DNA of 38,513 nt from Acidocella aminolytica 101 = DSM 11237. Its GTDB lineage: Bacteria; Pseudomonadota; Alphaproteobacteria; Acetobacterales; Acetobacteraceae. The stretch covers positions 1 to 38,513 of the forward strand of contig NZ_FQVJ01000035.1 of assembly GCF_900129125.1 (NCBI RefSeq). Direction: 5' to 3'. Under the pieces are notes generated by a model, which was not told the DNA's origin, ran no database searches, and was given only the letters and a program-made list of their open reading frames with translations. Positions 1,468 through 26,449 of this stretch are shown one piece after another (position 1 is the first letter of the stretch; each line of letters starts with the position of its first letter). The translations under genes and the position numbers were made by a program.

Positions 1468-1824
1468 TTACACAACCGCCAAATAGTGCTTTACAAAACG
1501 AGGCGTATGAACTGTCCAGAGGACGGGCGTCCCCTTCTCTACCATCCAGCCTTCACCTTGCTTGTAGGTCACGGATTCACCGGTGCTTTCATTCGTGAGA
1601 GTGACTTCGCCTTCCAGCACCATGGCGTGCTCTGTAAACGGATAAACCATCCGAAAACGACTCTTGTTTACGCCAAAATAGCCAGCGCTAATCTGAGCAT
1701 CCGGCCCGCCAAGAGTAAAGCTTCCGAACGCGGCCCCGACACCTTCGAGGATTGTTGAACCGAGATCAGCTACCGTTCCCCAACTATCAAGTTGAGGAAT
1801 CGAAGAAGATTTAAGTGCGAGCAT
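1468..1824 (-). CDS. Small cupin protein (Cupin_3/DUF861-like)
   Basis: A 118-residue single-domain cupin. The barrel is recognisable from YPFTEHAMVLEGEVTLTN (about residues 63-80) followed by a Gly-rich turn, GEGWMVEKGTPVLWTV, as in the Cupin_3 family that includes ureidoglycine aminohydrolase and EutQ-like proteins. ATG at 1824 is preferred over the upstream in-frame TTG at 1839 because AAAGGA sits 6 nt before it. The gene starts 15 bp after the FAD oxidase stop and is the last gene of the permease-oxidase-cupin operon. Similar small cupins accompany PuuB-like oxidases in amine operons. Its reaction is unknown; a binding or sensing role is also possible. Confidence 0.7.
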   Translation of the reverse strand: MLALKSSSIPQLDSWGTVADLGSTILEGVGAAFGSFTLGGPDAQISAGYFGVNKSRFRMVYPFTEHAMVLEGEVTLTNESTGESVTYKQGEGWMVEKGTPVLWTVHTPRFVKHYLAVV

Positions 1825-1839
1825 AGATAGTCCTTTCAA

Positions 1840-3156: not shown

Positions 3157-4620
3157 TCAGATCTTCTCGAACCCAATGCTCTTATAACGGGCTGGATCCG
3201 CTGCGCGCAGACGAATTGACAGTATACCCCCGATGATTGCGGCAAATAGGATCAATCCGGTCAAGCTATAGGATAGTAGCTTCGAAGCGCCGGTCAGCAG
3301 ACTAAAATTAATCACGATAAAATAAAGCACTGTAACCAATAGCGCCCCCGCCACGACAGGCGCAATAAAAGAAGAAAATATACCGTCGGAAAGGTGACGA
3401 TTTCGGGCAAAGAAAGCCGGCACTGCAAAAGAAGCAATTGCCATCAACGCAATAACGCCAAGCGTCCCAACATTTGTTAACCAGGAGAATAACGACAGCA
3501 CAGGATCTTGTTTGGCGATCACAAAGATTAAGACAACGACAGCAGCAAGAACGGATTGCGCCACAGAACCAGTATGTGGGCTCTGATGGACATGATGCGT
3601 CTTACCAAAATACTGAGGCAGCAGCCCCTCGCGCCCCATTGCAAAGAAGTACCTCGCCACAGAATTATGGAAGGCAAGTAAACCAGCATAAACAGAGGTT
3701 ACGAAAAGAACACTCATCAAAAGCGATAGCCAGTGCCCAGCATAACGGTTAGCCATTAGGAACAAGAAACGCGTTGGGTCCTGTAACCCGCCTAGGAACC
3801 CGACGAGCTTGTTTGTACCAATCGCGTTAACAAGACACCAACTAGACAACATGTAAAAACCGCCGATCAAAACGACTGAGAAATATGTTGCAAGCGGAAT
3901 TGTACGCTTAGGATCCTTAGCTTCTTCGCCATAAATTGTTGTTGCTTCGAAACCGACAAAGCAAGCGAAGGCAAACACAAGACCGATAGAAGGCGACATA
4001 GCAAAGACCCTCGACGGCGCAAAAGGTGCCGCACTCAATCCAGATGCTCCACCTTTAGCTATAATGGCAACATCCAGTACAAGCACACACAGATATTCGG
4101 CCGCCACAAGCAAGGTCAGAACTTTGGCAGACAAGTCAACCTGACGGTAACCGAGCACAGCAATGCTGGCCATAGCTATGTAAGAATAAGCCCACCAAGG
4201 CAGATTGATACCAGCTTGCTGGAACAGGCTCTGCGCTGCTGCACCAAACATTCCATAGAGACCTATCTGCATCGTATTATAGCCGATAAGAGCAATCATG
4301 GAGGCCGCACCTCCAGCCACCCCTCCCAACCCCCGAGCAGCAAATGCGTAAAAGGCACCGGCATTAGTTATATGACGCGCTAAAGCACAGTAACCAACGG
4401 CAAACAGCGCTAGGATAATTACCGTAATCAGGTAAGAACCAGGCATTCCGGGGCCGTTTCCCAGAAGCATCCCTAGTGGTGCGCCGCCAGCAATAGCCAC
4501 CAATGGCCCAGCCGCCGAAATTACAAAGAATGTGACCGCTCCGACCCCTAACGTACCTTTGCGTAGTTGGTTCGCCGCAGGAGCGAGTGGCGGTAAAGTA
4601 TCGATATGTTCGTAGGACAC
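3157..4620 (-). CDS. APC-family amino acid/polyamine permease
   Basis: About 487 residues with roughly 12 hydrophobic segments. The first membrane helix carries the APC consensus (VTFFVISAAGPLVAIAGGAP), and FVGFEATTIYGEEAKDPKRT (about residues 226-245) is the conserved helix 6/loop motif of this family. It is an inner-membrane proton-coupled importer of amino acids or amines. Two in-frame GTG codons compete for the start, at 4629 and 4620. AGGGGG abuts the first but stands 8 nt before the second, so 4620 is chosen. It is the first gene of a minus-strand operon with the FAD oxidase and cupin, divergent from an AraC-type regulator. Eukaryotic-type or sugar transport is excluded by the APC motifs; exact substrate unknown. 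Confidence 0.85.
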   Translation of the reverse strand: MSYEHIDTLPPLAPAANQLRKGTLGVGAVTFFVISAAGPLVAIAGGAPLGMLLGNGPGMPGSYLITVIILALFAVGYCALARHITNAGAFYAFAARGLGGVAGGAASMIALIGYNTMQIGLYGMFGAAAQSLFQQAGINLPWWAYSYIAMASIAVLGYRQVDLSAKVLTLLVAAEYLCVLVLDVAIIAKGGASGLSAAPFAPSRVFAMSPSIGLVFAFACFVGFEATTIYGEEAKDPKRTIPLATYFSVVLIGGFYMLSSWCLVNAIGTNKLVGFLGGLQDPTRFLFLMANRYAGHWLSLLMSVLFVTSVYAGLLAFHNSVARYFFAMGREGLLPQYFGKTHHVHQSPHTGSVAQSVLAAVVVLIFVIAKQDPVLSLFSWLTNVGTLGVIALMAIASFAVPAFFARNRHLSDGIFSSFIAPVVAGALLVTVLYFIVINFSLLTGASKLLSYSLTGLILFAAIIGGILSIRLRAADPARYKSIGFEKI

Positions 4621-4730
4621 TGAATGCACCCCCTAAAACCGGTTTACTTGTTTATTTAACTGAGAAGTTATGATTTCTCATAGGACAGCCTTTTAAACAG
4701 CAAGCCACAACATTAAGGCGATTGTAGAAA

Positions 4731-4760
4731 GCGCCAAATTTATGATAAGATACGCCAAAT
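4731..4760 (+). promoter_or_regulatory. Conserved regulator site upstream of permease operon / AraC gene
   Basis: The octamer CGCCAAAT occurs twice, at 4732 and 4753, exactly 21 bp apart (two helical turns), around a TGATAAGAT core. The whole 30-bp element matches 22 of 30 bases at 16769-16798, in front of the paralogous regulator gene. Direct half-sites two turns apart are the usual pattern for AraC-family proteins, so this is probably the binding site of the regulator encoded at 4793-5836. Confidence 0.65.
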
Positions 4761-4792
4761 TCGTTTTATTCCCGGCCTAGACTGAGGATTAG

Positions 4793-5836
4793 ATGCGTCG
4801 CAAGCATACACAGCTCGAATCCATACCAATGATACGCTCTTCAGTTGTAAACCAAGTGATAGATGCAATTCTTGCACAACCAAATGGTGCAAGTTTTTTA
4901 CGACAACAGCACGGCATAAGAGAGCCGAAGGCAAATTTGTACGAGCAGATTCCACTATCTCGTTATCTATCTCTGTTTGAACATGCTGCTTTAGTAGCCA
5001 AAGATCCTTTACTTGGTGCTCGTATAGGCTTCACGAATCCGCCTGGAGAGCTTCTCGGGCCAATTGGCTTTCTGGTTCTCACTAGTCCTAGCCTGAGGAT
5101 AGGGCTTGAACATCTTAGCCATTACATACGCGCATGGCAGGACACGACCGACATTAAATTACATCTCGGGGAAGATACCGCTACGTGGTCTTACCGGATT
5201 AATTCTTCAAATCTATGGCCTCGACGGCAAGATTCTGAGTTCACCCTAAGCGCGACATGCTCAATGATTCGCGCCTGCTTTGGTGAAAAATGGATTCCTT
5301 ACGAAGTTCATTTTGAACATCATAGACCACAAGAATGGCGTGAATTAGAGAGAATGTTCAGATCTAAAATTCGGTTTGACCAATCTGACAACGCACTAGT
5401 TCTTGAACTAAATGATTTAGATCGACCTTTATTAAATAGAACTAGTTCTGGATTTGCACCATTTTTGCGGAAGCATATCGAAGACATTCTAGCTGATGAA
5501 CCTGAGACCATTCCGCTTGAACATCAAGTCAGACAGATAATTTCCCGCGATCTTGGTAAGGTTCCAGTGAACCTTACGTCCCTTTCAGCTGAGTTGGGTA
5601 TCCCAGCTCGTACGCTACAACGGCATTTGGCCGAGCAAGGAACATCTGTTCGTGAAATCATTCGAAAATTAAAGCAGCAAGAGGCTAGAACTCTACTAAC
5701 GCAAAGTAATCGCCATATTGGCACAGTGTCCCAAGCAGTGGGATACACTGATCAAGCCGCTTTCTGGCGTGCGTTCAAATCCTGGGAAGGCGTTTCGCCC
5801 GCCGATTACCAGCGGGCGAAACGTAAGAAGAGATAA
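4793..5836 (+). CDS. AraC-family regulator, OruR/ArgR-like
   Basis: A 347-residue activator-type protein. The N-terminal two thirds match the 'arabinose-binding domain, N-terminal' type (PF12625 style), with IPLSRYLSLFEHA, LLGARIGF, LGPIGFLVLTSPSL and QDSEFTLSATCSMIR. The last ~100 residues are the double HTH, with LGIPARTLQRHLAEQGTS as first and VSQAVGYTDQAAFWRAFKSW as second recognition unit. GAGG 6 nt upstream supports the ATG at 4793. Divergent transcription from the permease-oxidase-cupin operon and the adjoining repeat element suggest it activates that operon in response to its substrate. It is clearly paralogous to the regulator at 16820-17860. AT-rich codon use differs from the neighbouring homogentisate operon. 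Confidence 0.88.
   Translation: MRRKHTQLESIPMIRSSVVNQVIDAILAQPNGASFLRQQHGIREPKANLYEQIPLSRYLSLFEHAALVAKDPLLGARIGFTNPPGELLGPIGFLVLTSPSLRIGLEHLSHYIRAWQDTTDIKLHLGEDTATWSYRINSSNLWPRRQDSEFTLSATCSMIRACFGEKWIPYEVHFEHHRPQEWRELERMFRSKIRFDQSDNALVLELNDLDRPLLNRTSSGFAPFLRKHIEDILADEPETIPLEHQVRQIISRDLGKVPVNLTSLSAELGIPARTLQRHLAEQGTSVREIIRKLKQQEARTLLTQSNRHIGTVSQAVGYTDQAAFWRAFKSWEGVSPADYQRAKRKKR
5791..5823. terminator. 12-bp perfect hairpin inside the 3' end of the AraC gene
   Basis: CGTTTCGCCCGC at 5791-5802 pairs perfectly with GCGGGCGAAACG at 5812-5823 across a 9-nt loop. It lies within the last codons of the AraC gene and just beyond the stop codon of the convergent MBL gene (only 3 bp separate the two genes). 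It is placed to stop the long homogentisate transcript coming from the right. No T-run is seen. Confidence 0.5.
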
Positions 5837-5839
5837 GGA

Positions 5840-6793
5840 TTACCCTTGTAATGCAGCCCACATGTCACGGTCACGCTCAGCCGTCCAAATACGGGGATTC
5901 TCAATCCCCAGCGCCTCATCGTAGGCACGCGCGACGTTAAAGGGCAGGCAATGCTCATAGATTGCATAATTACCAAACTTGTGGTCGCACGCCGCACGAC
6001 AAGCTGTCATCGCGTCCTTTAAAGAGCCGCCACGTGCTGCGACCTCCGCCACGGCGTTATAGGTCGAGGTCACAAAGTCCTTGGTGGCGTCCAAACCAGC
6101 CTGTACCATTTCAGCCCCTACCAGCGCATCACCACGACCGGGCGCAATAGACTTTGGATTGTATCGCGCAATGGCATCCAATGTGGCGGGCCAGTCATTG
6201 TAATGCGCATCGCCGCAATAGCAGGCGGAATGATACTCCACGATATCACCCGTGAACATCACGCCCGCATCTGGTACCCAAGCCACAATGTCACCTGCCG
6301 TATGCGCCCGGCCAAGCTGCAGCAGTTCCACGCGTCGCTTGCCAAGATAAACCGTCATTTTGCCATTGAAGGTCATTGTCGGCCAGGTCAGCCCCGGCAC
6401 AGACTCAGCAGCCTGGAACAAGCGCGGGAACCGGCCAAGCTCAGAGGCCCAGTCCTCATTGCCCCTCTCCTGGATCATGCCGCGGCATTTTTCGGAAGCA
6501 ACGATCTCCGATGCGCCATAAGCGGAGGCGCCCAAAACGCGCACAGCATGGTAGTGCGAGAGCACGACATATTTGATCGGCTTATCCGTTACGCTACGAA
6601 TTTTTTCAATTACACGCTGCGCCATGGCGGGGGTGGCCTGGGCATCTATGATCATCACGCTGTCATCACCGATGATCACGCCGGTATTCGGATCTCCCTC
6701 GGCGGTATAAGCATAAAGGTTCGGGCCGACCTCAGTAAAAGAGACTTTTTTCTCGGTGAGATCACCTGTGGAGGCAAAGGAAGGTGTCGACAT
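5840..6793 (-). CDS. MBL-fold hydrolase with altered metal motif
   Basis: A 317-residue protein with a metallo-beta-lactamase fold: GVIIGDDSVMIIDAQ (about 38-52), VVLSHYHAVRVLG (76-88), LGRAHTAGDIV (160-170) and MFTGDIVEYH (179-188). The classical HxHxDH signature reads HYHAVR here (H80 and H82 kept, Asp84/His85 replaced by Val/Arg), while H164 and D183 are kept. A normal two-metal site is therefore unlikely; one metal or a different site is expected. It is the last gene of the homogentisate operon, starting 6 bp after the maleylacetoacetate isomerase stop and sharing its AAAGGATAA ribosome-binding region. A role as thioesterase, lactonase or detoxifying hydrolase for the pathway is possible but not shown. 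Confidence 0.75.
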   Translation of the reverse strand: MSTPSFASTGDLTEKKVSFTEVGPNLYAYTAEGDPNTGVIIGDDSVMIIDAQATPAMAQRVIEKIRSVTDKPIKYVVLSHYHAVRVLGASAYGASEIVASEKCRGMIQERGNEDWASELGRFPRLFQAAESVPGLTWPTMTFNGKMTVYLGKRRVELLQLGRAHTAGDIVAWVPDAGVMFTGDIVEYHSACYCGDAHYNDWPATLDAIARYNPKSIAPGRGDALVGAEMVQAGLDATKDFVTSTYNAVAEVAARGGSLKDAMTACRAACDHKFGNYAIYEHCLPFNVARAYDEALGIENPRIWTAERDRDMWAALQG

Positions 6794-6799
6794 AGCAGA

Positions 6800-7447
6800 T
6801 TATCCTTTTTCAAAATCAGATTGGTTTTCTGGCGCCGCATTGATGAAAGCAGGCAGCGAATGAGCCGCTTCGTCAACGCGGCAAAGGCCGGGATATGGGG
6901 TGAGGTCCAGACCGAAGCGGCGGGCGTTATAAAGTTGCGGCACGATACAAAGATCGGCGAGGCCGGGTTCGTCGCCAACGGCAAAACGTCCAGCCGTTTT
7001 CCGCAACCGGGCTTCAATCGCGGTAAAGCCCGCCTCCATCCAATGCCGGTTCCAGGCGGCGCGGCCTTCTCCACTTTCCCGGTAATCGGCGCTTAACTTC
7101 CCAAGCACGCGCAAATTGCCGACAGGATGAATATCGCAGGCAATGATGCAGGCAATTTCCCGGGCATAAGCGCGCGCGGCCAGATTACTGGGCAACAATG
7201 ACGGCGTCGGATGCGCCTCTTCGAGATATTCGATGATGGCCAAAGACTGTCCCAACGCCACCCCCTCCTCGCTGAACCAAGGTACAAGCGCCAGCGGATT
7301 CAAGGCGCGGTACGCTTCGCCGTGCTGTTCTCCCTTGCGCAGATGCACCGGCACATGCGTGACGCTCAGCCCTTTCAGGAGGAGCGCAATGCGCACTCGG
7401 TAAGCCGCAGTGGAGCGGTAATAGCCATGGAGTGTACGCTCAACCAT
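6800..7447 (-). CDS. maiA: Maleylacetoacetate isomerase (zeta-class GST)
   Basis: A 215-residue glutathione-S-transferase fold of the zeta class: thioredoxin-like N-domain with the active-site stretch YYRSTAAYRVRIALLLKG (about residues 9-26), then LNPLALVPWF with the cis-proline, QSLAIIEYLEE, and a helical C-domain containing VGDEPGLADLCIVPQLYNARRF split over about 150-175. It converts maleylacetoacetate to fumarylacetoacetate with glutathione. The ORF is open much further upstream, but ATG at 7447 is chosen because the GST homology starts there and it overlaps the fumarylacetoacetase stop by 8 bp. Its place directly after hmgA and fumarylacetoacetase fixes the assignment over a generic GST. 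Confidence 0.92.
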   Translation of the reverse strand: MVERTLHGYYRSTAAYRVRIALLLKGLSVTHVPVHLRKGEQHGEAYRALNPLALVPWFSEEGVALGQSLAIIEYLEEAHPTPSLLPSNLAARAYAREIACIIACDIHPVGNLRVLGKLSADYRESGEGRAAWNRHWMEAGFTAIEARLRKTAGRFAVGDEPGLADLCIVPQLYNARRFGLDLTPYPGLCRVDEAAHSLPAFINAAPENQSDFEKG

Positions 7448-8714
7448 CGCACCATTCCGGGCGCAAGGAAGGTGCTGGAAGAATTGTCCCCTCGCAGACA
7501 CCAAACCCAATACGATAGTCAGGCCCTTGCGCCCATCCCGTGAGCGTAAGCGTGTCCCCGTCCTCAATGAAGCGCCGCTCAACGCCACCTTCCAACAGTA
7601 GCGGCTCCTTGCCGCCCCAGGTAATTTCCAGCAACGAACCACGGCTACCTTTGTCCGGACCGGAAATGGTGCCCGAGCCCAGCAGATCACCCACCTCCAT
7701 CTTGCAGCCGCCAATGGCGTGGTGCGCCAGTTGCTGCGCCGCCGAATAATAGAGCTCGCAAGTGTTTGTCCGCGAAATCATATTATCGCCATCCTGCCCG
7801 GCGGCACGCATATGCACCTCCAAATGAACGTCATAACGCATCGGAGCTAGCTCGCGCAGATAGGGCAACAACGGGCGCACCCGACTAGGACTTGGCAAAC
7901 GGAACGGCTCAAGCGCGGCCTTGGTTACCACCCAGGGGCTAATAGAAGTAGCGAACGCTTTCGCCTGAAAGGGACCCAGCGGCTGATATTCCCAGGCTTG
8001 GATGTCACGGGCCGACCAATCATTCAGCAGCACATAGCCGAAGATCAACTCATCGGCCTCAGCCACGGTCAATGGCTCACCCATCTGCGTCCCCTGCCCC
8101 AGCACCGCTCCAAACTCCAATTCGATGTCGAGGCGTTTGGTGGGGGAGAAGATGGGAAAGTCCGCCTCAGGTGGCTTGATCTGCCCCAGAGGGCGGCGCA
8201 CGGGTGTTCCACTGACCACAACGGTGGATGCGCGACCATTATAGCCGATGGGAATGCTGAGCCAGTTTGGAGGCAACGCATTTTCTGGGCCGCGGAACAT
8301 AGTGCCAACATTTTCTGCGTGGTGGCGCCCGGCATAGAAATCCGTATAACCAGCCACCTCGAAGGGGAGATGCATACGCACAGCCGTCTGCGAAATCAGC
8401 ACCTTCGCGCGCAAGTCAGCATCATCACGCAGTGCCGGGTTGCCGTTCTCTACGAACAAATCCATCAACTGGGCGCGAATATTGGCCCAAACGGCCTTAC
8501 CCTGTGCCATGAAGGCATTGAGCTTTGGTTGGTCGAAGCCAGGAGCTTCAATCAACCCCGCACGCTCCAGCGCCGCCAGATCAGCCACATACCCACCGAT
8601 AGCTGTGCCGCAACGCGGCATCTCACCATCCCGGCTAAACACGCCATAGGGCAGGTTGTTCAACGGAAAATCGCCATCCGGCGCATTCGCGTCTTCAAGC
8701 CAGCTGCGCAGCAT
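7440..8714 (-). CDS. Fumarylacetoacetase
   Basis: A 424-residue FAH-family hydrolase that splits fumarylacetoacetate into fumarate and acetoacetate. Starting from ATG 8714, the metal ligands of the mammalian enzyme appear one residue earlier than there: D125 in GYTDFY, E198 and E200 in LDIELEFG, D232 in LLNDWSARD, with the catalytic His at 132 (GRHHA) and R141 after GTMF. The N-terminal SH3-like domain (residues 1-~115) is present, so this is a full-length two-domain enzyme rather than a short FAH-fold hydratase. A GTG three bases upstream (8717) is an alternative start. The ATG shares one base with the hmgA TGA (TGATG), indicating translational coupling. Confidence 0.95.
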   Translation of the reverse strand: MLRSWLEDANAPDGDFPLNNLPYGVFSRDGEMPRCGTAIGGYVADLAALERAGLIEAPGFDQPKLNAFMAQGKAVWANIRAQLMDLFVENGNPALRDDADLRAKVLISQTAVRMHLPFEVAGYTDFYAGRHHAENVGTMFRGPENALPPNWLSIPIGYNGRASTVVVSGTPVRRPLGQIKPPEADFPIFSPTKRLDIELEFGAVLGQGTQMGEPLTVAEADELIFGYVLLNDWSARDIQAWEYQPLGPFQAKAFATSISPWVVTKAALEPFRLPSPSRVRPLLPYLRELAPMRYDVHLEVHMRAAGQDGDNMISRTNTCELYYSAAQQLAHHAIGGCKMEVGDLLGSGTISGPDKGSRGSLLEITWGGKEPLLLEGGVERRFIEDGDTLTLTGWAQGPDYRIGFGVCEGTILPAPSLRPEWCDG

Positions 8715-10021
8715 CACTTCACCCCCGGAGTGCCGTCAAATTTCTTCTCAAGCCCGGCCCAGCAAGCCGGATAATCTGGCTGCAAACTTGGCAAGTCGGC
8801 CGCATATTGGGTGAGAAGCTGCGGCAACCGCGTCTCAAACATGAAAGCCATAGTATTGCTGAGTTTCTGTGGTTTCAGTTCGGCGGTACTTGCTTTCTCA
8901 AACGCCTCGGCATCCGGTCCATGCGGAAGCATGCAGTTATGCAGGCTCATGCCGCCCGGCGCAAAGCCATGTTCCTTCGCATCGTACTGACCATAGATCA
9001 GTCCCATAAACTCGGACATAATATTCATGTGATACCAGGGCGGGCGGAAGGAATGTTCCGCTACCAACCAGCGCTCAGGGAAGATCACAAAATCAACATT
9101 CGCGGTTCCAGCTTCGCCCGTCGGAGCGGTGAGTACTGTAAAGATCGACGGATCCGGATGATCGAACAAGATCGCGCCAACTGGTGAGAAGGTGCGCAGA
9201 TCATATTTGTACGGCGCGTAATTGCCATGCCAAGCCACTACATCGAGCGGCGAGTGATTAATCATCGTCTCATGAAACTGGCCGCACCATTTAACTACGA
9301 CGCGCGCCTTCACGTCGCGATCCTCAAATGCTGCTACTGGCGTTTTAAAGTCACGGGAATTGGCAAGACAGTTAGCACCGATCGGCCCGCGCTCCGGTAA
9401 AGTGAATTTGGCGCCGTAATTCTCGCATATATAACCACGCGCCGTACCATCCAACGGTGCGACGGTGAATTTCAGCCCGCGCGGCAATACCGCGATCTCG
9501 GCCGGTCCGATCTCCATAATACCGAGCTCCGTGGCAATGCGCAGCCGCCCGTGATCAGGCACCAGCATCAACTCACCATCGGCATTATAGAAATACTCAT
9601 CCTGCATCGGCGCGTTGATCAGGTAGATATGCGCGGCCATGCCGGTCTGGGAGTAGACATCGCCTGCTGTTGTCATGGTGCGCATGCCGGTCAGGAAGGT
9701 CAGCTGTTCATCCGGCAACGACACCGGATCCCAGCGCAGTTGGCCAAGAGGTAAGCCATGTTCCACCACATGCGGCGCAGACTTCCAGAAAGGTAGATCA
9801 AACCGCCGGAACGCTCCAATATGCCTTACGGAAGGCCGGATGCGGTACAACCAGGAGCGCTCATTGCTACCGCGCGGCGCTGTAAAGGGTGACCCGGAAA
9901 GCTGCTCGGCATAAAGCCCATAAGGACAGCGTTGCGGCGAGTTCTGCCCCTGCGGTAATGCGCCAGGCAGAGCTTCTGTTTCAAAATCATTGCCGAATCC
10001 CGGCAAGTACTCAAGTGCCAT
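8714..10021 (-). CDS. hmgA: Homogentisate 1,2-dioxygenase
   Basis: This 435-residue protein is unmistakable: it opens with [19 protein letters not shown] and [17 protein letters not shown], and keeps the iron ligands H331 and E337 in [12 protein letters not shown] and H367 in CMLPHGPD, each offset by four from the human enzyme. It opens the ring of homogentisate to maleylacetoacetate using O2 and Fe(II), in the cytoplasm. GGGGAG 8 nt upstream supports the ATG at 10021. It is the central gene of the operon: the flavoprotein hydroxylase lies upstream and fumarylacetoacetase and isomerase lie downstream in pathway-compatible order. No 4-hydroxyphenylpyruvate dioxygenase gene is in the window, so homogentisate is probably made another way here. 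Confidence 0.97.
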
Positions 10022-10066
10022 CTATTAACTCCCCAACCGCGTTTAGGCGTTTCCGATTATTTGGCG

Positions 10067-10258
10067 TCAAAGCCGACCACCAGCCATCCGCAGTGCCGAG
10101 CGAATGACCTCACGGTCGCCGATATGATTGGCTAGAATTAGGACCAGCTTGCAATTCATCATGGCCGCTTCGGTGTCATTCATCCGGCGCTGGCTGTCGA
10201 TGAGCTCTTTATAGAATCCATCGGGGTCGTCGATGTTCGGATTAAGATTCAGATCCAT
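10067..10258 (-). CDS. DUF2783 small protein, possible hydroxylase coupling partner
   Basis: A 63-residue acidic protein (MDLNLNPNIDDPDGFYKE..., ending ALRMAGGRL) with the DUF2783 pattern, including LILANHIGDREV. ATG at 10258 is chosen over an upstream in-frame ATG at 10273 because AAGGAG, which spans the stop codon of the hydroxylase, stands 6 nt before it. This small protein sits between the flavoprotein hydroxylase and hmgA. In Pseudomonas putida U the 3-hydroxyphenylacetate 6-hydroxylase is described as a large flavoprotein (MhaA) with a very small coupling protein (MhaB); size and position fit that model. Equivalence to MhaB is inference. Confidence 0.75.
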   Translation of the reverse strand: MDLNLNPNIDDPDGFYKELIDSQRRMNDTEAAMMNCKLVLILANHIGDREVIRSALRMAGGRL

Positions 10259-10269
10259 GCTTAACTCCT

Positions 10270-11877
10270 TCAAGACGCCATCGCGCGGGCCAGTGCGCGG
10301 CTGATCTTGGCTTTGTCGAAACGCTTCCAGCGCGCGGCGATATATTGGTCTGGCCGAATAAGATAGGTTGTACCTGGATCGGCACCATAACGGATAGCCA
10401 GATGGCCAGATACGTCCTCGATATCTTTTCCAACCTCCAACACCTTTGCTTGAACACGTCCAAACGCCACATACTCAGCCGGCACCGGACCAAAGCTCAG
10501 CACAGTAAATCCGCGGCCGGTCTGGTTCAGAAACCAAGCATCCTGGTCATGAACACGAACCGGTGCATCCGCTGCATTTGTACCGGGTGCCACACCGCCA
10601 GGGAATGGCTCTTCATCAGGCGTATTCAACGAAGAGTTGGCATAAGGTGTAGGCATGGAAAGCCGCCCGCTATTAACCAACCGGCGGGCAAAGGGACATT
10701 CGTGTGCCAACCGCAGCACCGCATCGCGGTACAGACGGCTCGATGGCGTTTTCGGCGTGATGAAATCTGTCGAACGCGTCGAGTTCAGGATATTATCATC
10801 CGCCGCAAAAGCCCGCTCCTCATGATAACTATCAATCAGCGCCTCAGACGCGTCGCCGTCGACCACAAGCTTCAGCTTCCACATCAAATTATCAGTATCT
10901 TGTACACCTGAATTCGCGCCCCTCGCCCCGAAAGGCGACACCTGATGCGCTGAGTCTCCGGCAAAAATCACCCGCCCATAACGGAAATTGTCAATCCGCC
11001 GACAAGCAAACTGATAGACAGAAGCCCATTCCAGCTCGAATGGACGATCATCCCCTAGCATAGCGCGCACACGCGGAATAATACTTTCCGGCTTCTTTTC
11101 TTCCGCGGCATCACAATCCCATCCGAGCTGGAAATCGATACGCCATACATCGTCCGGCTGCCGGTGCAGAAGTACTGACTGATTGGGATGAAATGGCGGA
11201 TCAAACCAGAACCAACGCTCGGGCGGATATTCAGCGCTCATGATGACGTCCGCGATCAAGAAGCGATCTTGGAAAGCCTGGCCTGCCCACTGCGCGCCAA
11301 CCATATTACGGACGCTTGAATTCGCACCGTCGCAGGCGAGTACCCAATCGGCTTCCATGGTGAATACGCCGTCCGGTGTTTCAACCGTTAGAGCAACATA
11401 ACCATCTTTCTGCTCTAATGCAGTTATCTTGTGCTTCCAGCGCAAGTCAACCTGCTGTTTCCTTGAAATCGCCTCGACCATATATTCTTCGAGATAATAT
11501 TGCTGGAGGTTTATCATCGCCGGCATTTTGTTGTCGGCCTCAGGCAGCAGATCAAACTGATAGGATAGTGCGTCCTTAAAAAATACCTTGCCTAACTTCC
11601 AGTTAACCCCCTTGGCAGCCATACGTTCACCAACTCCAAGACGGTCAAGCACTTCCAGTGTACGCTTGGCATAACACACCGCGCGCGAGCCCATTGAGAC
11701 AGTGTCATTATCATCAAGAATGACACATGGCAGACCTTGATTCGCCGCATCCAAGGCCGCAGCCAACCCAACCGGCCCAGCACCAATAATCACCAGTTTA
11801 TGTCGCAGAATTTCTCCGGCTTTTTGCTCCGGGGATTGCTTATAGCTGAACCGGGGATGGGTATAGGTTTTCAGCAT
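10270..11877 (-). CDS. FAD-dependent aromatic hydroxylase (MhaA/MhpA-like)
   Basis: A 535-residue class A flavoprotein monooxygenase. It has the GxGxxG motif VIIGAGPVGLAAALDAANQG (about residues 29-48), the DG motif VLACDGANSSVR, and the GD motif VIFAGDSAHQVSPFGARG, followed by a thioredoxin-like C-terminal domain. It uses NAD(P)H and O2 to hydroxylate an aromatic ring. Position directly before the DUF2783 gene and hmgA suggests the product is homogentisate, so 3- or 4-hydroxyphenylacetate is the likely substrate. The ORF stays open to 11985, but ATG at 11877, preceded by AGAGGAA, avoids overlap with the VOC gene and starts where family similarity begins. An MhpA-type 3-hydroxyphenylpropionate hydroxylase is the alternative, but the context argues against it. 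Confidence 0.85.
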   Translation of the reverse strand: MLKTYTHPRFSYKQSPEQKAGEILRHKLVIIGAGPVGLAAALDAANQGLPCVILDDNDTVSMGSRAVCYAKRTLEVLDRLGVGERMAAKGVNWKLGKVFFKDALSYQFDLLPEADNKMPAMINLQQYYLEEYMVEAISRKQQVDLRWKHKITALEQKDGYVALTVETPDGVFTMEADWVLACDGANSSVRNMVGAQWAGQAFQDRFLIADVIMSAEYPPERWFWFDPPFHPNQSVLLHRQPDDVWRIDFQLGWDCDAAEEKKPESIIPRVRAMLGDDRPFELEWASVYQFACRRIDNFRYGRVIFAGDSAHQVSPFGARGANSGVQDTDNLMWKLKLVVDGDASEALIDSYHEERAFAADDNILNSTRSTDFITPKTPSSRLYRDAVLRLAHECPFARRLVNSGRLSMPTPYANSSLNTPDEEPFPGGVAPGTNAADAPVRVHDQDAWFLNQTGRGFTVLSFGPVPAEYVAFGRVQAKVLEVGKDIEDVSGHLAIRYGADPGTTYLIRPDQYIAARWKRFDKAKISRALARAMAS

Positions 11878-11915
11878 TTCCTCTTTTTCCTTCGCGGATT
11901 TTTTCAGCGTCTGGT

Positions 11916-12455
11916 TTAGCGACTGCCGAATTCGATCTCGTGCGTCCAGGCCATATAACGGGGCGGCGTCTTGGTAAGATTCCAATCACGCAGCATCAAA
12001 TCCGCTACATCCTGCATACGGTTTAATTGCTCTGCAGTAGCAGTGTTCACTGCGAGTTCAATGCGATGTCCATTTGGATCGCGGAAATAAATGGAGTGGA
12101 ACAAGGCATGATTTGTGGGACCCACGACATCAAGCCCAGCTTCTTCCAGACGTTTCTTTGTCGATATCAGTTCATCGATGCTCTCAAGTTCGAATGCCAA
12201 ATGCTGCACCCAATCCGGGGTATTACGATCCCTATCCATCTCCGGCGCGTTAGGAAGCTCGAAGAAAGCCAGGACATTGCCACCACCCGCATCAAGAAAG
12301 ATATGCATATAAGGGTCAGGGGCCTTGGTAGACGGCACATGATCCTCGGCGAAGGCGCCTATCAGCCTCATGCCAAGATGCATCTTATAGAATTCGGCTG
12401 TCTCGCCCGCATCCTTGCAACGATAGGCAACATGATGGATTTTCTGGATCGTCAC
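11916..12455 (-). CDS. VOC-family protein (glyoxalase/dioxygenase fold)
   Basis: A 179-residue protein with two beta-alpha-beta-beta-beta modules: IHHVAYRCKDAGETAEFYKM at the N-terminus (candidate metal ligand H8), PDWVQHLAFEL in the middle (His), and FRDPNGHRIELAVNT (Glu) near residue 135. These spacings match metal-binding VOC proteins such as glyoxalase I and small dioxygenases. It starts with GTG (AGGA about 8 nt upstream) and is the first gene of the homogentisate operon, directly behind the MarR-operator region. Its reaction is unknown. Ring cleavage is already covered by HmgA, so isomerisation, detoxification or an upstream oxidation are options. Confidence 0.8.
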   Translation of the reverse strand: MTIQKIHHVAYRCKDAGETAEFYKMHLGMRLIGAFAEDHVPSTKAPDPYMHIFLDAGGGNVLAFFELPNAPEMDRDRNTPDWVQHLAFELESIDELISTKKRLEEAGLDVVGPTNHALFHSIYFRDPNGHRIELAVNTATAEQLNRMQDVADLMLRDWNLTKTPPRYMAWTHEIEFGSR

Positions 12456-12490
12456 GGTATGATTCCTAGATCGTTTCTTTGATCATATTA

Positions 12491-12504
12491 GTAACATATG
12501 ATAC
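12491..12504 (-). promoter_or_regulatory. MarR operator, proximal to VOC/homogentisate operon
   Basis: GTAACATATGATAC is itself an imperfect palindrome (12 of 14 bases symmetric around CATATG). Its reverse complement differs by one base from the site at 12576-12589. Located 36 bp upstream of the VOC start, it is well placed for repression of the homogentisate operon. Confidence 0.6.
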
Positions 12505-12575
12505 GATAATCATCAAGGATGAATTTTATGCTCAGCCAAAATTTGTCTATTGATATGATGCATGCATGATTTTAG

Positions 12576-12589
12576 GTATCATTTGTTAC
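12576..12589 (+). promoter_or_regulatory. MarR operator, proximal to marR
   Basis: GTATCATTTGTTAC, the mirrored partner of the site at 12491-12504, lies 16 bp before the MarR start codon. A duplicated palindrome in a divergent MarR promoter region is the standard autorepression arrangement. Confidence 0.6.
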
Positions 12590-12605
12590 AGACAGGACAC
12601 GGGCA

Positions 12606-13088
12606 ATGGCGACTCCTAAGACAAAACGCGACGAAGCCTCACCGAAACTGACCTTGAACGCCTTCCTACCTTACCGCCTGGTCGTGCTGGCGGATGAAAT
12701 TTCGCGGACGGTCGCTCATATCTATAGTGACCGCTTCAACCTTACCCGCCCTGAATGGCGTGTCATGGCTTCGTTGCAGGAGCTTGGCCCCGTCTCCGCC
12801 ACTGAAATCTGCGCCCACTCCACCCAGGACAAAATGACTGTCAGCCGCGCTGTTGCCAGTCTGGAGGCAAGTGGCCTTTTGCACCGAAATGACGACCCAC
12901 AAGACCGGCGCAACAAGCGCCTTGAACTGACTCAAGCTGGGCGTGTCTTGTACCAAAAGCTTGTTCCGCTGGTGTTGGCACGGGAGGAATATCTGATCGA
13001 AACCCTTAGCCCAGAAGAGCGGACCTTTTTGGATAAGCTCTTGACCACATTGCTCCAGCGCGCCCGGGAACTTGAGAAGCGGGGCTGA
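12606..13088 (+). CDS. MarR-family regulator of the homogentisate operon
   Basis: A 160-residue winged-helix protein with the MarR layout: N-terminal dimerisation helix, LTRPEWRVMASLQELGPVS, recognition region TEICAHSTQDKMTVSRAV, and the wing DDPQDRRNKRLELTQAG with the conserved DxRxxR-type element. It is divergent from the seven-gene homogentisate operon, and the 150-bp gap between them holds two mirrored 14-bp palindromes. Its ligand is probably homogentisate or an arylacetate, by analogy with other aromatic-pathway MarR proteins, but this is inferred. It converges on the aldehyde dehydrogenase gene with a 26-bp gap. Confidence 0.88.
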   Translation: MATPKTKRDEASPKLTLNAFLPYRLVVLADEISRTVAHIYSDRFNLTRPEWRVMASLQELGPVSATEICAHSTQDKMTVSRAVASLEASGLLHRNDDPQDRRNKRLELTQAGRVLYQKLVPLVLAREEYLIETLSPEERTFLDKLLTTLLQRARELEKRG

Positions 13089-13114
13089 GCTACAACATCT
13101 CGCCCCACCCCACC

Positions 13115-14521
13115 TCAAACCAGCAGCGTCTGAATGGTGGTGAACTCCTTCAGTCCCTCAACACCAAATTCCACTCCCATACCGGACTGCTTAACCCCGC
13201 CAAACGGCGCATTTGGCTGCACGGCGCCATGCTTGTTGATCCAGACCGAACCACATTCGAGCCGCGTGGCAACAGCCTTGGCGGCTTCGATGTCTTTGGA
13301 CCAGACCGAACCGCCTAGGCCGAACGGGCAGTCATTGGCCTTAGCTACAGCCTCCTCGACGGTGCCGTAGCGGATAATCGGCAAAGCCGGGCCAAACTGC
13401 TCCTCATCCACAAGGCGGATACCATTATCGACGTTGGAGACTAGAGTAACTGGATAAAAGAAGCCTGGTCCATTGCCTGGATTGCCGCCCAAAAGCACCT
13501 TCCCACCATGCAACTTGGCGTCTTCCACCAACTCCCGTACCAAGGCCAGCTGCTTTTCGTTCTGCACCGGCCCTAGAATACTATCTTCCAGAAGCCCATC
13601 ACCAACCTTCACCTGAGAGGCATAAGCCGTCAGTGCGTCACAAACAGCATCATGGATGCTGTCATGCACGTAGAGACGCTTGAGCGCTGCACAGGTCTGG
13701 CCGTTATTAATGAAAGCGCCCCAGAACAGCCCTTCGGCAATAGCCTGCGGGTCAGCATCCGGCAGAACGATACCGGCGTCATTGCCGCCCAGTTCAAGCG
13801 TCAACCGCTTAAGGGTACCGGACGCCGCTTCCATCACTTTTTTGCCAACGGGCGTCGAGCCTGTAAAGACGACCTTGCTGATGCCAGGATGGGAAGAAAG
13901 CTGACCACCGAGCCCGCCTTCACCAGTAACTACATTGATAACGCCTGGCGGCAGAACCTCGTTCATCAGTTCCACCATGCGAATGGTGGAGAGCGGCGTG
14001 AGGCTGGAGGGTTTATTGACGACAGTATTCCCCGCCCGGATGGCAGGTAGCACGTGCCAACAAGCAATCATCACCGGCCAGTTCCAGGGGGTGATGGAGC
14101 CAACGACGCCAATCGGCTTGCGGTGCAACTCTACCCTGCCCTCAGGCGTATCCTGAAGGATCTCAACAGACAGGGTTAGATCCGCCGTTGCTCGCGCCCA
14201 GGCGACAGCGCCACCAATCTCAAAACGTGACCCCAGACCGTTGAGAGGCTTACCCTGCTCGAGCGTGAGCAGCTCCGCCAACTCCTCTGTATGAGTCTCG
14301 ATAATGTCCGCGACCTTATGACAAAGCGCCTGACGTTCCGCATCGGGCGTAGCGGCCCAAGCAGGAAAAGCTGTCGCGGCAGCGGCCACCGCCTTGTCCA
14401 AATACATCTGCGTGGCTAACGGCATCATCCCCACCACAGCGCCGTCTGCCGGGTTGCGCACCTCCGCATACTGCGCGGTCTGAAGCTTCTTGCCGTTAAT
14501 CACGAGGCCATAATGGGTCAT
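13115..14521 (-). CDS. NAD(P)-dependent aldehyde dehydrogenase (aryl-acetaldehyde type likely)
   Basis: A 468-residue ALDH with all catalytic elements: PWNWP with N147, K170 in NKPS for NAD(P), general base E243 in LELGGND, and nucleophile C277 in NNGQTCAALKR. It oxidises an aldehyde to a carboxylate. The sequence alone does not fix the substrate. The gene just upstream on the same strand encodes a FeaR-like regulator, and in Escherichia coli FeaR controls the phenylacetaldehyde dehydrogenase FeaB, so an arylacetaldehyde is the best guess. GGGGGA 8 nt upstream supports ATG 14521. A direct repeat pair just upstream is a likely activator site. Alternatives: vanillin- or betaine-aldehyde type ALDHs. 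Confidence 0.88.
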   Translation of the reverse strand: MTHYGLVINGKKLQTAQYAEVRNPADGAVVGMMPLATQMYLDKAVAAAATAFPAWAATPDAERQALCHKVADIIETHTEELAELLTLEQGKPLNGLGSRFEIGGAVAWARATADLTLSVEILQDTPEGRVELHRKPIGVVGSITPWNWPVMIACWHVLPAIRAGNTVVNKPSSLTPLSTIRMVELMNEVLPPGVINVVTGEGGLGGQLSSHPGISKVVFTGSTPVGKKVMEAASGTLKRLTLELGGNDAGIVLPDADPQAIAEGLFWGAFINNGQTCAALKRLYVHDSIHDAVCDALTAYASQVKVGDGLLEDSILGPVQNEKQLALVRELVEDAKLHGGKVLLGGNPGNGPGFFYPVTLVSNVDNGIRLVDEEQFGPALPIIRYGTVEEAVAKANDCPFGLGGSVWSKDIEAAKAVATRLECGSVWINKHGAVQPNAPFGGVKQSGMGVEFGVEGLKEFTTIQTLLV

Positions 14522-14578
14522 GCCGGTAATCCCCCTCTAATTTTGGAGACTAATTAGGCAGTTCTAACGGCCCCCGTC

Positions 14579-14615
14579 TTGGACAAACGCGCAGTCTGAT
14601 TTGGACAAAAACGCA
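14579..14615 (-). promoter_or_regulatory. Direct repeats, probable AraC-type activator site for the ALDH gene
   Basis: TTGGACAAACGCGCA (14579-14593) and TTGGACAAAAACGCA (14601-14615) match at 13 of 15 bases and start 22 bp apart, two helical turns. They lie in the 103-bp gap between the FeaR-like gene and the ALDH start, 58 bp from that start. This is the expected geometry for an AraC-family dimer. Confidence 0.55.
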
Positions 14616-14624
14616 CCATCACCT

Positions 14625-15614
14625 TCAGTTGGGCCGCAGGAAATCCCCTGGAGTTCCTCCAAACATGGAACGGAAACTCCGATTGAAGTAGGAGATGTCA
14701 TTAAACCCTGCAGAGAGCGCGATGGACGCTATGGTCTCGCCCTGACGCAGCCCGTATCTCCTAAGGCGGTCATGCACGCGACGTAGCCGGCATTCACGAA
14801 TGACTTCCGTGCAACTCTGGCCGGAGATACGGAAATCTTCCTGCAATGTCCTTATCGACACACCGAGGCGATCTGCCAGCCAAGTCACCCCCAACTCAGG
14901 TATCGTCAGATTTTGCTCAATTAAAAATCTAGCTCGCTGAAGCCTGATCTCCGCAGCCTCGACCACGCCCCCTTTCGGCACGGCGTCTATCAAACTCTGC
15001 CGGATAGCGTCATTCAATAAACCAATAAGTGGCTGGGCCTCAGGTTCACTTGGCATCGTGAGCAATTTGGCGAAGAGGGCACGCAGTACAACTGCCATAG
15101 GATCGTACCCATCAAGCTTGCGCGGCCCCCCCAATCCCATGGGTTGTGCAGCCAAGATCGCCTGCCGCGGCAAATGCAACGAGACATGATTTGAAAGCGT
15201 TCCACCGAAATTAAACGCCAAAGGTACGGCGGAATCAAGCAACGTGCAATCTCCCGCAGCAAGCATGAACCTTACATCCCGCTGCTCCACGCCGCATTGC
15301 CCTTCAACCTGAATAAGCAGCAGCAGATCGCCCTTGTCATCCCTACGAATATCGGAAGGTGATCTGACGATCCGATCTAAATCATTAACCACATGCGCGA
15401 AAACCAAACCCGACAATTCCTTGCGGCTGACTCCCCCCCGGACTTGCTTCCCGGGTTCCACCGGCTTGGGTTGGAAGCGACCACACACCGCATGCAAGTC
15501 CTCGGCCCATTTGTCGAACCGGTTGGTAGACCATTGGCGGTTGGCCAGCGTGCTTATCCTGCTCAGATCCACGTTAAACTCCCTCGCCGAAGACGCAGCT
15601 TCTACGCAAATCAT
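14625..15614 (-). CDS. AraC-family regulator, FeaR-like
   Basis: A 329-residue regulator with an AraC_binding_2-type sensor domain in residues ~40-200 (RKELSGLVFAHV, LLLLIQVEGQCGVEQ, LAAGDCTLLDS) and a C-terminal double HTH: WLADRLGVSIRTLQEDFRIS and IASIALSAGFNDISYFNRSF, ending in GGTPGDFLRPN. This domain pair is shared with FeaR, activator of 2-phenylethylamine catabolism in E. coli. It sits upstream of the aldehyde dehydrogenase on the same strand, with repeats suited to its binding between them. Inducer likely an aromatic amine or arylacetaldehyde (inference). Confidence 0.85.
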   Translation of the reverse strand: MICVEAASSAREFNVDLSRISTLANRQWSTNRFDKWAEDLHAVCGRFQPKPVEPGKQVRGGVSRKELSGLVFAHVVNDLDRIVRSPSDIRRDDKGDLLLLIQVEGQCGVEQRDVRFMLAAGDCTLLDSAVPLAFNFGGTLSNHVSLHLPRQAILAAQPMGLGGPRKLDGYDPMAVVLRALFAKLLTMPSEPEAQPLIGLLNDAIRQSLIDAVPKGGVVEAAEIRLQRARFLIEQNLTIPELGVTWLADRLGVSIRTLQEDFRISGQSCTEVIRECRLRRVHDRLRRYGLRQGETIASIALSAGFNDISYFNRSFRSMFGGTPGDFLRPN

Positions 15615-15680
15615 TTTTATCCGCTACCAAACGATTTAGAATATTCAAAAAATTGCGTTAACAAAGTCTATTCGCTCATC

Positions 15681-15709
15681 TCAGATAGATTATAGAACTC
15701 GCTATCTGA
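15681..15709. promoter_or_regulatory. Inverted repeat upstream of FeaR-like gene
   Basis: TCAGATAG (15681-15688) and CTATCTGA (15702-15709) form a perfect 8-bp inverted repeat with a 13-bp spacer, 67 bp upstream of the FeaR-like start codon, in the 276-bp gap after the MoaF-like gene. Arm size and spacing suit a dimeric regulator; the protein is unknown. Confidence 0.4.
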
Positions 15710-15781
15710 CCGAGGACAAGCTTCTAGTCTGAAATGTGTGATGTTTGATAAGGTACTCTTTTAAGTACAACTTCTTAAAGC

Positions 15782-15824
15782 GCTAAAGCAACAAACAAGC
15801 ACAACTCAAGGCGGCTAAAGCAAC
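15782..15824. repeat. Perfect 11-bp direct repeat in the moaF-feaR gap
   Basis: GCTAAAGCAAC occurs at 15782-15792 and 15814-15824, 32 bp apart (three helical turns). It lies between the MoaF-like stop and the FeaR-like start and may be a regulator site. Apart from this and the inverted repeat at 15681-15709, I see nothing in this gap. Confidence 0.4.
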
Positions 15825-15890
15825 GCTGTATTGACGCCGTTCATCAACCCAGAATTACGCAAGCAAGCGAAGCCAACTTTTAAGGGTTCG

Positions 15891-16691
15891 CTAAGTCATT
15901 AGCGGTTGACTGGAATTAATCGCTTCAACAAACGCGCCAATTTTAAAGTTAGAAAATTCTCCATCAACAAAATCGGCTTTACCAAAAATTTTTCCGTCCG
16001 TCTTACCACGCGCAAGATCCAGGAGCACAACACCAAGCGTCGGCACAACTTTCTCTTGCCAAACAAATAGATATAAATTATCGCGCAACTTAAAATAGTG
16101 GCAAAGATCTGTATCCGCTAAGCCTGCTTCCACTCCTTTAAGACAATGCCATGTATAGAATGTCTCGTTAAGATAAAGATGCTCGTAAACTTCTGTAGGG
16201 CTATAGCGGTAACGCACATGTTTACCCAACAGCTCTTTAGTACGAGGAAAACCAAAGCCATGCCCCCCACCGTCTATCCGTGCATTCCGAAACACCACAG
16301 AAACCGTGGTAAGCGCTAGTCCAGCAGCAGCTCGTTCTTGTAAGACGACAGACGCCTCTTCGCGAGCTGGTAGCTTGCCTTGAAGCTGTAAAGCTCGCCC
16401 AGAAACCATGTCCGCAACCAGTGATACTGCCTGATTGTCCGTAATATAGTCGACAAAATAAACCCCTTCGCACAAAGATGTTACGCGTACATTCGTACGC
16501 AAACCATTAGGCAAGTTGATAATCTGTTGGTTGCCGTCTAAGTCTATATTGGCGTTCCAACTAGAGCCATCTTCAAAAAGAAGCTCTAAAGACTTCCCGG
16601 AAAAATCGTGGCAGGGAGGTAATGTGTTGCTGTCTGTAGCAAAACCCTGCCCCAAATCTCCCACAGATATCCAATTTGCTGCAGCGCTCAT
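15891..16691 (-). CDS. MoaF-like protein (monoamine-regulon type)
   Basis: A 266-residue protein without signal peptide or membrane segments, resembling the MoaF family: an N-terminal lipocalin-like half (LELLFEDGSSW, VRVTSLCEGVYFVDYI) and a C-terminal half (VRYRYSPTEVYEHLYLNETFYTW split at about 177-200, then CHYFKLRDNLYLFVWQEKVVPTLG). MoaF was first described in the monoamine regulon of Klebsiella aerogenes; database labels calling it a molybdenum-cofactor protein derive from the gene name. Its biochemical role is not known. AGGAGG before ATG 16691 is a strong ribosome-binding site. It is divergent from an OruR-type regulator and upstream of the FeaR-like regulator and ALDH, supporting an amine-catabolic context. 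Confidence 0.7.
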   Translation of the reverse strand: MSAAANWISVGDLGQGFATDSNTLPPCHDFSGKSLELLFEDGSSWNANIDLDGNQQIINLPNGLRTNVRVTSLCEGVYFVDYITDNQAVSLVADMVSGRALQLQGKLPAREEASVVLQERAAAGLALTTVSVVFRNARIDGGGHGFGFPRTKELLGKHVRYRYSPTEVYEHLYLNETFYTWHCLKGVEAGLADTDLCHYFKLRDNLYLFVWQEKVVPTLGVVLLDLARGKTDGKIFGKADFVDGEFSNFKIGAFVEAINSSQPLMT

Positions 16692-16768
16692 GCACTTCCC
16701 TCCTTTTAAATCTAATTCTACAGGGGATTAAAATATGCTGATATCCAAAACACGGGAAATAGCGAAAT

Positions 16769-16798
16769 GCGCCGAAGTTGTGATAAAATCCGCCACGG
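16769..16798 (+). promoter_or_regulatory. Conserved regulator site between moaF-like gene and AraC gene
   Basis: A second copy of the 30-bp element at 4731-4760 (22 of 30 bases identical): GCGCC start, central TGATAA, CGCC again 21 bp later. It lies 21 bp upstream of the regulator gene start and 77 bp upstream of the divergent MoaF-like start. Both occurrences sit in a divergent promoter next to a paralogous regulator. Confidence 0.65.
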
Positions 16799-16819: not shown

Positions 16820-17860
16820 ATGGCGAATGGCTTGCAGACTTTCACCCCAGAAATTCGATCACCGTTGATATCTATTTTGCTAAACGGCTTGAGGGGAGAA
16901 GCCATGCGTAGGAGGGCGCGAGAGCGGCTAGGCATCTCCAGCCCCATGCTTGAAGCCCGTCTGTCGGCAGTACCTCTAACCCGTTACGTCGCGCTATTCG
17001 AGGAACTTGCGATCTATCACAGAGATCCGTTACTAGGTGCACACCTCGGTATGTCACAGACTGCCGCAGATGCATTGGGGCCACTTGGTTTTCTCCTCCT
17101 GGCAATGCCAACAATGGGTCAAGGTCTTGAAGCTGTAGCCAGATACATAAGCACATGGCAAACAGGAACAACTGTCGTGCTAAACCACTCCCGGGACGAA
17201 GCCTTCTGGAGTTACCGTATTGACGATTCAAAAATCTGGCCACGACAGCAGGACTCTGAATATACTTTAGCGGTAATGTGCTCCGCGATGCGCAGCCGTC
17301 TAAATCCTGGTTGGCGTCCTCTAGAAGTGCATTTTGAGCACGAAAAGCCTGCCTCTGCCTCAGCCCTTCGCTCGCTGTTCCAGGCGCCGATTCGGTTCAG
17401 CCAACCCGTTAACCAGTTCGTACTCGACCCCACAGAGCTGGATCTACCATATCAAACTCCGTTTGCTTGCTTTATTCCTTATGTTGAAGAGTATTTGCGC
17501 GCATTAATTCCCCAGCACACCGTAGCGCCGGACATTGTTTCTCAAGTTCATAATGCTGTCCGGGGGGCAATGAGTCATCGTGAAATATCTCTCGACTGGG
17601 TTTCACAGACACTTCAAATATCACCACGCACCCTACAGCGCCAACTTGCGACTAACGGAACCAATCTTCGAAAAATTATCCAGGAAGTACGAGAGAATGA
17701 GGCCGCGGCTTTGCTCCAGACAGGCCAGCGCCGTAGAACAGACATCGCTCATGCGCTCGGCTATTCGGATCACACTGCTCTCTGGCGAGCATCTCGCTCA
17801 TGGAGTAACCGCTCCCCTAAAACTAACTCCAAGAGCTCAACTGAATTGAAAAAATGTTGA
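16820..17860 (+). CDS. AraC-family regulator, OruR/ArgR-like (paralogue)
   Basis: A 346-residue protein aligned end to end with the regulator at 4793-5836: PLTRYVALFEELA, DPLLGAHLGMS, LGPLGFLLLAMP, WSYRIDDSKIWPRQQDSEYT, EVHFEHEKPAS, then the first HTH (LQISPRTLQRQLATNGTN) and second HTH (IAHALGYSDHTALWRASRSW). After that helix the usual aromatic/YR ending is replaced by a Ser/Lys-rich tail, SPKTNSKSSTELKKC, so the extreme C-terminus is atypical. GGAG 7 nt upstream supports ATG 16820. It probably controls the divergent MoaF-like gene and perhaps the whole amine module through the element at 16769-16798. Confidence 0.86.
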   Translation: MANGLQTFTPEIRSPLISILLNGLRGEAMRRRARERLGISSPMLEARLSAVPLTRYVALFEELAIYHRDPLLGAHLGMSQTAADALGPLGFLLLAMPTMGQGLEAVARYISTWQTGTTVVLNHSRDEAFWSYRIDDSKIWPRQQDSEYTLAVMCSAMRSRLNPGWRPLEVHFEHEKPASASALRSLFQAPIRFSQPVNQFVLDPTELDLPYQTPFACFIPYVEEYLRALIPQHTVAPDIVSQVHNAVRGAMSHREISLDWVSQTLQISPRTLQRQLATNGTNLRKIIQEVRENEAAALLQTGQRRRTDIAHALGYSDHTALWRASRSWSNRSPKTNSKSSTELKKC

Positions 17861-21609: not shown

Positions 21610-21686
21610 TGTCTTCCCTTTGCAAAGCTTATGTTTTTAGGTTTTTGACGCCAGAGGGCTGGTTCCCCGCAGCGCGGAACGGCGGC

Positions 21687-22943: not shown

Positions 22944-22971
22944 GTGACATCTCCTGTACCGGGCCCAGCGC

Positions 22972-22990
22972 ATGGAAATATCATTTTCAT
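22972..22990. promoter_or_regulatory. Possible LysR-type binding site
   Basis: ATGGAAATATCATTTTCAT is an inverted repeat (arms ATGGAAA / TTTTCAT, 6 of 7 matched) in the 150-bp divergent gap between the dioxygenase and the LysR gene, 29 bp from the dioxygenase start. A TATAAT at 23069-23074 may be the -10 element of the LysR gene. Confidence 0.35.
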
Positions 22991-24326: not shown

Positions 24327-24342
24327 TTGTTGAAATATTGGC

Positions 24343-26441: not shown

Positions 26442-26449
26442 GATGCCTC

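Follow-up and report, generated by a model that had tools for sequence, protein, structure and literature searches.

The window analysed here is a 38,513-nucleotide stretch of the genome of Acidocella aminolytica 101 = DSM 11237 (contig NZ_FQVJ01000035.1, positions 1 to 38,513), in which two related AraC/XylS regulators, A and B, each face a divergently transcribed set of catabolic genes (Table 1). Regulator A is divergent from an APC permease, a DAO-type flavin adenine dinucleotide (FAD) oxidoreductase and a cupin; regulator B is divergent from moaF, beyond which lie genes for a FeaR-like regulator and an aldehyde dehydrogenase, and homogentisate genes sit between the two modules. A sequence-only reading of this DNA had pointed to one 30-bp element in each divergent gap, at 4731-4760 and 16769-16798, and both are indeed present, with 22 of 30 positions identical. 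The conserved element is longer than that, extending over 36 bp at 4722-4757 (A) and 16760-16795 (B), and is a predicted subfamily-wide AraC-type operator with two 15-bp half-sites 21 bp apart.

The two elements stand out clearly against controls. Specifically, the best ungapped 30-mer pairing of the two gaps reaches 24/30 (4728/16766); 60 rounds of dinucleotide shuffling applied to both gaps yield 19/30 at best, and reverse-complementing one gap gives 18/30. A combined two-site pattern allowing up to three mismatches matches the 3.96-Mb genome twice, at the two window sites, and its reversed control gives no match. Additionally, a matrix built from 45 sites that exclude Acidocella and Paraburkholderia scores operators A and B at 26.3 and 25.0, the next score in the window being 6.6. 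The search pattern proposed in the sequence-only reading, with an N13 gap, misses both window sites and matches only C19:15010 and C45:44132; the correct gap is N14. A looser pattern, which had been relaxed to accommodate both window sites, gives 81 and 88 places in this genome versus 38 and 29 for its reversed counterpart, most of them chance matches; of its 17 two-mismatch places, the two that were inspected, both on contig C13, are judged real via the matrix. Contig C13 carries three further operator-type sites (at 2999, 7037 and 14603), bringing the sites found in this genome to five.

Architecture and spread of the operator

The spread of the element was followed in 80 named loci of Alpha- and Betaproteobacteria, retrieved via a conserved peptide. 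A CGCCA pair at 21-bp spacing (at most one mismatch) lies upstream of the regulator in 62 of the 80, versus 0-12 loci at spacings of 8-20 and 22-40 bp; exact repeats occur at 21 bp in 42 loci and at other spacings in at most four, and the pair points forward in 62 loci and in reverse in three. Given this distribution and the three other places in this genome, the view that the element is special to one duplicated pair is not supported, and it looks like a standard landing site for the family. The matrix of 57 unique sites reads TTGC-N6-(C/T)GCCA-N6-CGATAA-N3-TGCGCCA, which is the XylS-type layout of two direct repeats, box-N6-box, of 15 bp each. The full matrix scores at least 18 in 73/80 loci and in 0/80 equal lengths within regulator genes, a comparison with some circularity, since the matrix was trained on most of those sites. 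The distance from the site to the regulator start has a median of 38 nt and is 24 nt in many rhizobia.

Orthologs of the two regulators retain the element. Regulator A has orthologs of 60-66% identity in six same-genus genomes, and the element is kept upstream of all six (L058-L063), once with one mismatch; regulator B has orthologs of 63-69% identity in two same-genus genomes, where the element is again upstream of both, its CGCCA pair carrying one mismatch in one case and two in the other. Since the element is present upstream of orthologous regulators, the earlier interpretation of a conserved DNA specificity is not refuted. In a genus-wide pattern scan of the relatives' genomes, all five exact places fall at operators; of 13 one-mismatch places, four are at operators and nine elsewhere, and the four inspected among those nine lie within open reading frames. 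A control pattern with one extra base in the spacing finds six places across 38 genomes, all single matches with one mismatch, and none coincides with an operator.

Both proteins belong to the AraC/XylS family, with HTH_18 scores of 66.0 (A) and 44.9 (B) bits against a Pfam cut-off of 33.6, and to its Arabinose_bd branch (PF12625; 119.7 and 125.2 bits, cut-off 27.6). QhpR (NF049968) is the top named model for A, B and three other paralogs; A and B, at 232.7 and 223.5 bits, stay below its cut-off of 250, which two other proteins of the genome, on C15 and C84, exceed. The label "OruR-type" given to the pair before is not backed by these assignments: no OruR model surfaced in general profile scans, in which no comparison was aimed at OruR. 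The pair had also been described as paralogs aligning end to end. The paralogy holds, at 39% identity over 284 residues, and the alignment begins at residue 53 of A, so it does not run end to end. A quick 118-row tree places A and B as sister clades, with a Shimodaira-Hasegawa-like approximate likelihood ratio test support of 94%, below the 95 level, and puts the C13 paralogs in other groups. Because of this placement, A and B appear to be an old duplication inside this lineage, with the C13 copies separate. Further relatives are encoded on C13 (two), C35, C84 and C15. Upstream of the QhpR-like paralog at C35:31047 (L170) lies an exact CGCCA-N16-CGCCA repeat with a different centre (TTGTCA), seen also in G120 (L039).

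Promoter geometry and the proposed mechanism

Seen from the divergent genes, the operator tends to hold a fixed position relative to a predicted promoter. Among 28 non-redundant divergent sites, 13 have a -10-like TANNNT hexamer exactly 23 nt past the operator's last box, and every other offset from 10 to 37 nt occurs in at most one of the 28, which places the last box against the position of the -35 element; by eye, no good -35 element is visible at the divergent promoters. The window sites match this geometry only loosely, and rhizobial and Paraburkholderia sites fit it better. The candidate -10 of the permease operon is not a TANNNT match, and GTTTAA or GTTAAA occurs at 22-23 nt in the Acidocella orthologs L058-L061 as well.

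Table 1. Coordinates of the operators, candidate promoter elements and genes in the window
Feature	Position	Strand	Description
Operator A	4722..4757	+	TTGT-N6-CGCCA-N6-TGAT-N6-CGCCA; permease strand TGGCG-N6-ATCA-N6-TGGCG-N6-ACAA
Operator B	16760..16795	+	TAGC-N6-CGCCG-N6-TGAT-N6-CGCCA
Candidate -10, divergent permease operon	4693..4698	-	GTTTAA, 23 nt from operator A
Candidate -10, moaF	16730..16735	-	TATTTT, 24 nt from operator B (consensus 23); predicted
Putative -10, regulator A	4746..4751	+	TAAGAT, within operator; from sequence and matrix pattern GATAA-N2-T
Putative -10, regulator B	16784..16789	+	TAAAAT, within operator; from sequence
Regulator A	4793..5836	+	Arabinose_bd + HTH_18, QhpR-like
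Regulator B	16820..17860	+	Arabinose_bd + HTH_18, QhpR-like
APC amino acid/amine permease	3157..4629	-	Putative divergent target of A
FAD-dependent (DAO) oxidoreductase	1840..3147	-	Likely amine oxidase
EutQ-like cupin	1468..1839	-	
MoaF	15891..16691	-	Both MoaF domains; putative divergent target of B
FeaR-like AraC regulator	14625..15614	-	166 bits vs FeaR cut-off 199
Aldehyde dehydrogenase	13115..14521	-	

Operators also occur away from regulator genes. A matrix scan of 1.17 Mb of retrieved loci yields 37 further matches, compared with 0 per replicate in shuffled and 1 in reversed sequence; nine are repeat sightings, in other pieces, of sites upstream of regulators, and 28 (one of which turned up twice) precede candidate targets. 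Paraburkholderia-type loci have the permease downstream of the regulator, and in 21 of 22 of them a further operator of the same orientation precedes the permease, with TANNNT at 23 nt in 21/21. L072 and 20 alike loci of this type (about position 7120) have two operators each, and toward the target both are followed by a -10-like TANNNT at 23 nt. L122, L126 and L137, as well as C13:7037 in this genome, have an operator before the gene for tyramine oxidase subunit B; in L115, one precedes a histone-deacetylase-like gene. The C13:7037-7072 site (L168) stands directly 5' of the subunit B gene (NF004848, 687.8 bits, cut-off 362) with no adjoining regulator; its far side looks rearranged, with no long open reading frame for about 1.3 kb, and a regulator remnant proposed there is not convincing (top match E 0.008, 31 residues). 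In Acidocella sp. KAb 2-4, a second APC permease gene likewise has a complete operator and no adjoining regulator (L172:16881-16906). The two permease copies share 424 of 488 residues and are only 75% identical in DNA, so retention of this operator is not just recent copying.

The neighbourhoods indicate what the regulon may serve. A permease relative lies in the retrieved flank of 71 of the 80 related loci, tyramine oxidase subunit B is linked with the relatives in 18, and A-like clusters adjoin homogentisate genes in Rubrimonas and Frigidibacter. The linkage to homogentisate genes and tyramine oxidase subunit B points to aromatic or other amines as candidate substrates.

We consider it likely that these QhpR-like AraC/XylS regulators activate the adjoining amine genes from this operator and limit their own synthesis; repeat, fixed spacing, orientation, place and conservation are read from the sequence, and from them we infer binding, activation, self-repression and inducers. 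Two regulator monomers would bind head-to-tail, one per half-site (4-base box, 6-base gap, 5-base box), the 21-bp period setting them two helical turns apart. In the direction of the divergent gene, the operator reads TGGCG-N6-ATCG-N6-TGGCG-N6-GCAA and would end at the expected -35 element, with the -10 element 23 nt on. With an amine-type inducer, the bound regulator would recruit RNA polymerase, A to the permease/oxidase operon and B to moaF. Because the operator would overlie the regulator's own promoter from the -10 to about +1, self-limitation is expected, and the regulators probably repress themselves from this same site. Self-activation from the site in the fashion of XylS was rejected for the many loci in which the regulator start lies only 11-33 nt past the site and leaves no space for a promoter. 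The idea that TTGC and TAAANT are a mere -35/-10 pair of the regulator is weakened, since B-type sites carry TAGC or TGGC and operators without a regulator retain both boxes.

Several observations weigh against this activation reading. Both window sites lack TANNNT at the exact 23-nt distance; the 21 second sites of Paraburkholderia are close kin that reduce to two non-redundant groups, and none of the five non-redundant second sites outside that genus has TANNNT at this distance. Seven of the 80 relatives lack a matrix match of at least 18, and the 4-base boxes TTGC and CGAT are unlike each other, though each is conserved. Furthermore, the QhpR model finds 94 places in 385 genomes of the class, of which 90 were compared, leaving aside the four in this genome that score below the cut-off. 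Among these, proteins above the QhpR cut-off have the exact repeat in 0/24 and a one-mismatch repeat in 3/24 cases, within the background of other spacings (0-8/24). Below the cut-off, the repeat occurs in 25 of 66 (other spacings 3-16), and several of these relatives read, by eye, approximately TGAC-N6-CGCCA-N6-TGAC-N6-CGCCA, a perfect double repeat. Because the repeat is found below and not above the cut-off, the predicted operator code is assigned to a branch next to QhpR and has variants.

Shared sites and alternative readings

One alternative concerns who acts at these sites: as the sequence-only reading suggested, A and B may recognize a common site code, each also regulating the module of the other, within a single amine-to-homogentisate pathway. 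The two window sites are alike at 26 of 36 positions and A sites across species at 24-26 of 36, and this equal similarity permits shared recognition. Orphan target operators must, moreover, be served in trans by some regulator, and both modules flank homogentisate genes here, like the A-like clusters of the two genera named above. However, the second DNA-reading helix is changed in B (LWRASRSW, FWRAFKSW in A), which may separate the specificities, B sites are relaxed at the first CGCCA (CGACA, CGACG, CGCCG), and the sensor domains are merely 39% alike across the alignment. On these grounds cross-regulation of the A and B modules is possible, and we rate it as tentative and less likely than not. 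A wider version, in which one operator code serves at least four QhpR-like paralogs (A, B and the two on C13) and the orphan tyramine oxidase subunit B site in one cell, seems to us rather doubtful. If it were true, amine modules would be coupled via common sites and differ chiefly in the amine that each sensor accepts.

A second alternative reduces the element to a promoter and self-repression site for the regulator itself, the divergent genes being under other control. The site is always oriented along the regulator, contains a -10-like TAAANT and lies at the distances given above from the regulator start, and C13:2999 precedes a regulator with no divergent open reading frame of at least 150 residues within 1.7 kb. 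This reading is nonetheless improbable, for the divergent -10-like element tends to be locked in position to the operator, and operators complete with the GATAA centre precede targets that have no regulator on the opposite side, namely the 21 Paraburkholderia-type permeases, the KAb 2-4 permease and tyramine oxidase subunit B. Likeness by common descent alone, through a recent duplication of the intergenic regions without conserved function, would suit the sister clades of A and B but is scarcely credible, given that the remainder of the two gaps fails to align (the best 30-mer being the site itself), that the proteins have fallen to 39% identity, and that phyla-wide relatives with differing flanks have the site in common.

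Taken together, the reading is widened from one pair to a regulator branch and its regulon, and the operator is real and well conserved. In this way, a chance-looking motif pair becomes a predictive operator for a large, little-studied regulator group. It predicts targets from sequence (permeases, FAD amine oxidases, tyramine oxidase subunit B and moaF) and, for several lineages, exactly where the activated promoter should lie. Orphan target sites beside several paralogs offer a clean case for cross-talk avoidance, or use, among near-identical sites, and the second permease of KAb 2-4 is a natural test of action in trans.

Other genes of the window surround these modules. The FeaR-like gene (14625-15614), between the aldehyde dehydrogenase and moaF, has no CGCCA operator at a matrix score of 18. 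The product of 5840-6793 is a metallo-beta-lactamase-fold hydrolase, 89-93% identical in Acidocella relatives, whose top NCBIfam models are quinoprotein relay zinc metallohydrolases, well under cut-off. Positions 20386-29116 hold a likely aromatic ring-cleavage cluster with genes for an MFS transporter, a fused LigB-LigA dioxygenase, a LysR regulator, an amidohydrolase, PrpF and RraA-like proteins.

Comparison with known systems

A literature search found no description of this operator, and its closest counterparts lie in other AraC-type systems. The ArgR half-site, TGTCGC-N8-AA, agrees in order with the present half-site. XylS at Pm has a 21-bp period and a placement against the -35 element, and its sensor domain differs from that of the present regulators. 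According to PMC5481539, XylS binds two 15-bp direct repeats, each a 4-base box, a 6-bp gap and a second box, the same box-N6-box geometry as here. The XylS boxes, TGCA and GGTA, are different ones, and the present operator sits in the gap of a divergent gene pair and partly coincides with the promoter of the regulator itself. For SphR of Pseudomonas aeruginosa, the site description in PMC3900636 gives the half-site TGNCCSNNRNNSNCC, with two direct repeats 6-8 bp apart and poor -35 elements. These half-sites begin TGNC, resembling the present operator read TGGCG-first, and the geometry is close; SphR responds to sphingosine, and the comparison covers the sites. QhpR is the top named model for A and B and shares an amine-linked neighbourhood, but both score below its cut-off, and the proteins above it lack the 21-bp CGCCA repeat. 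Finally, the structure of VirS from Mycobacterium tuberculosis (8rcx), a regulator involved with other genes, matches residues 55-340 of regulator A with an E value of 1.8e-10.

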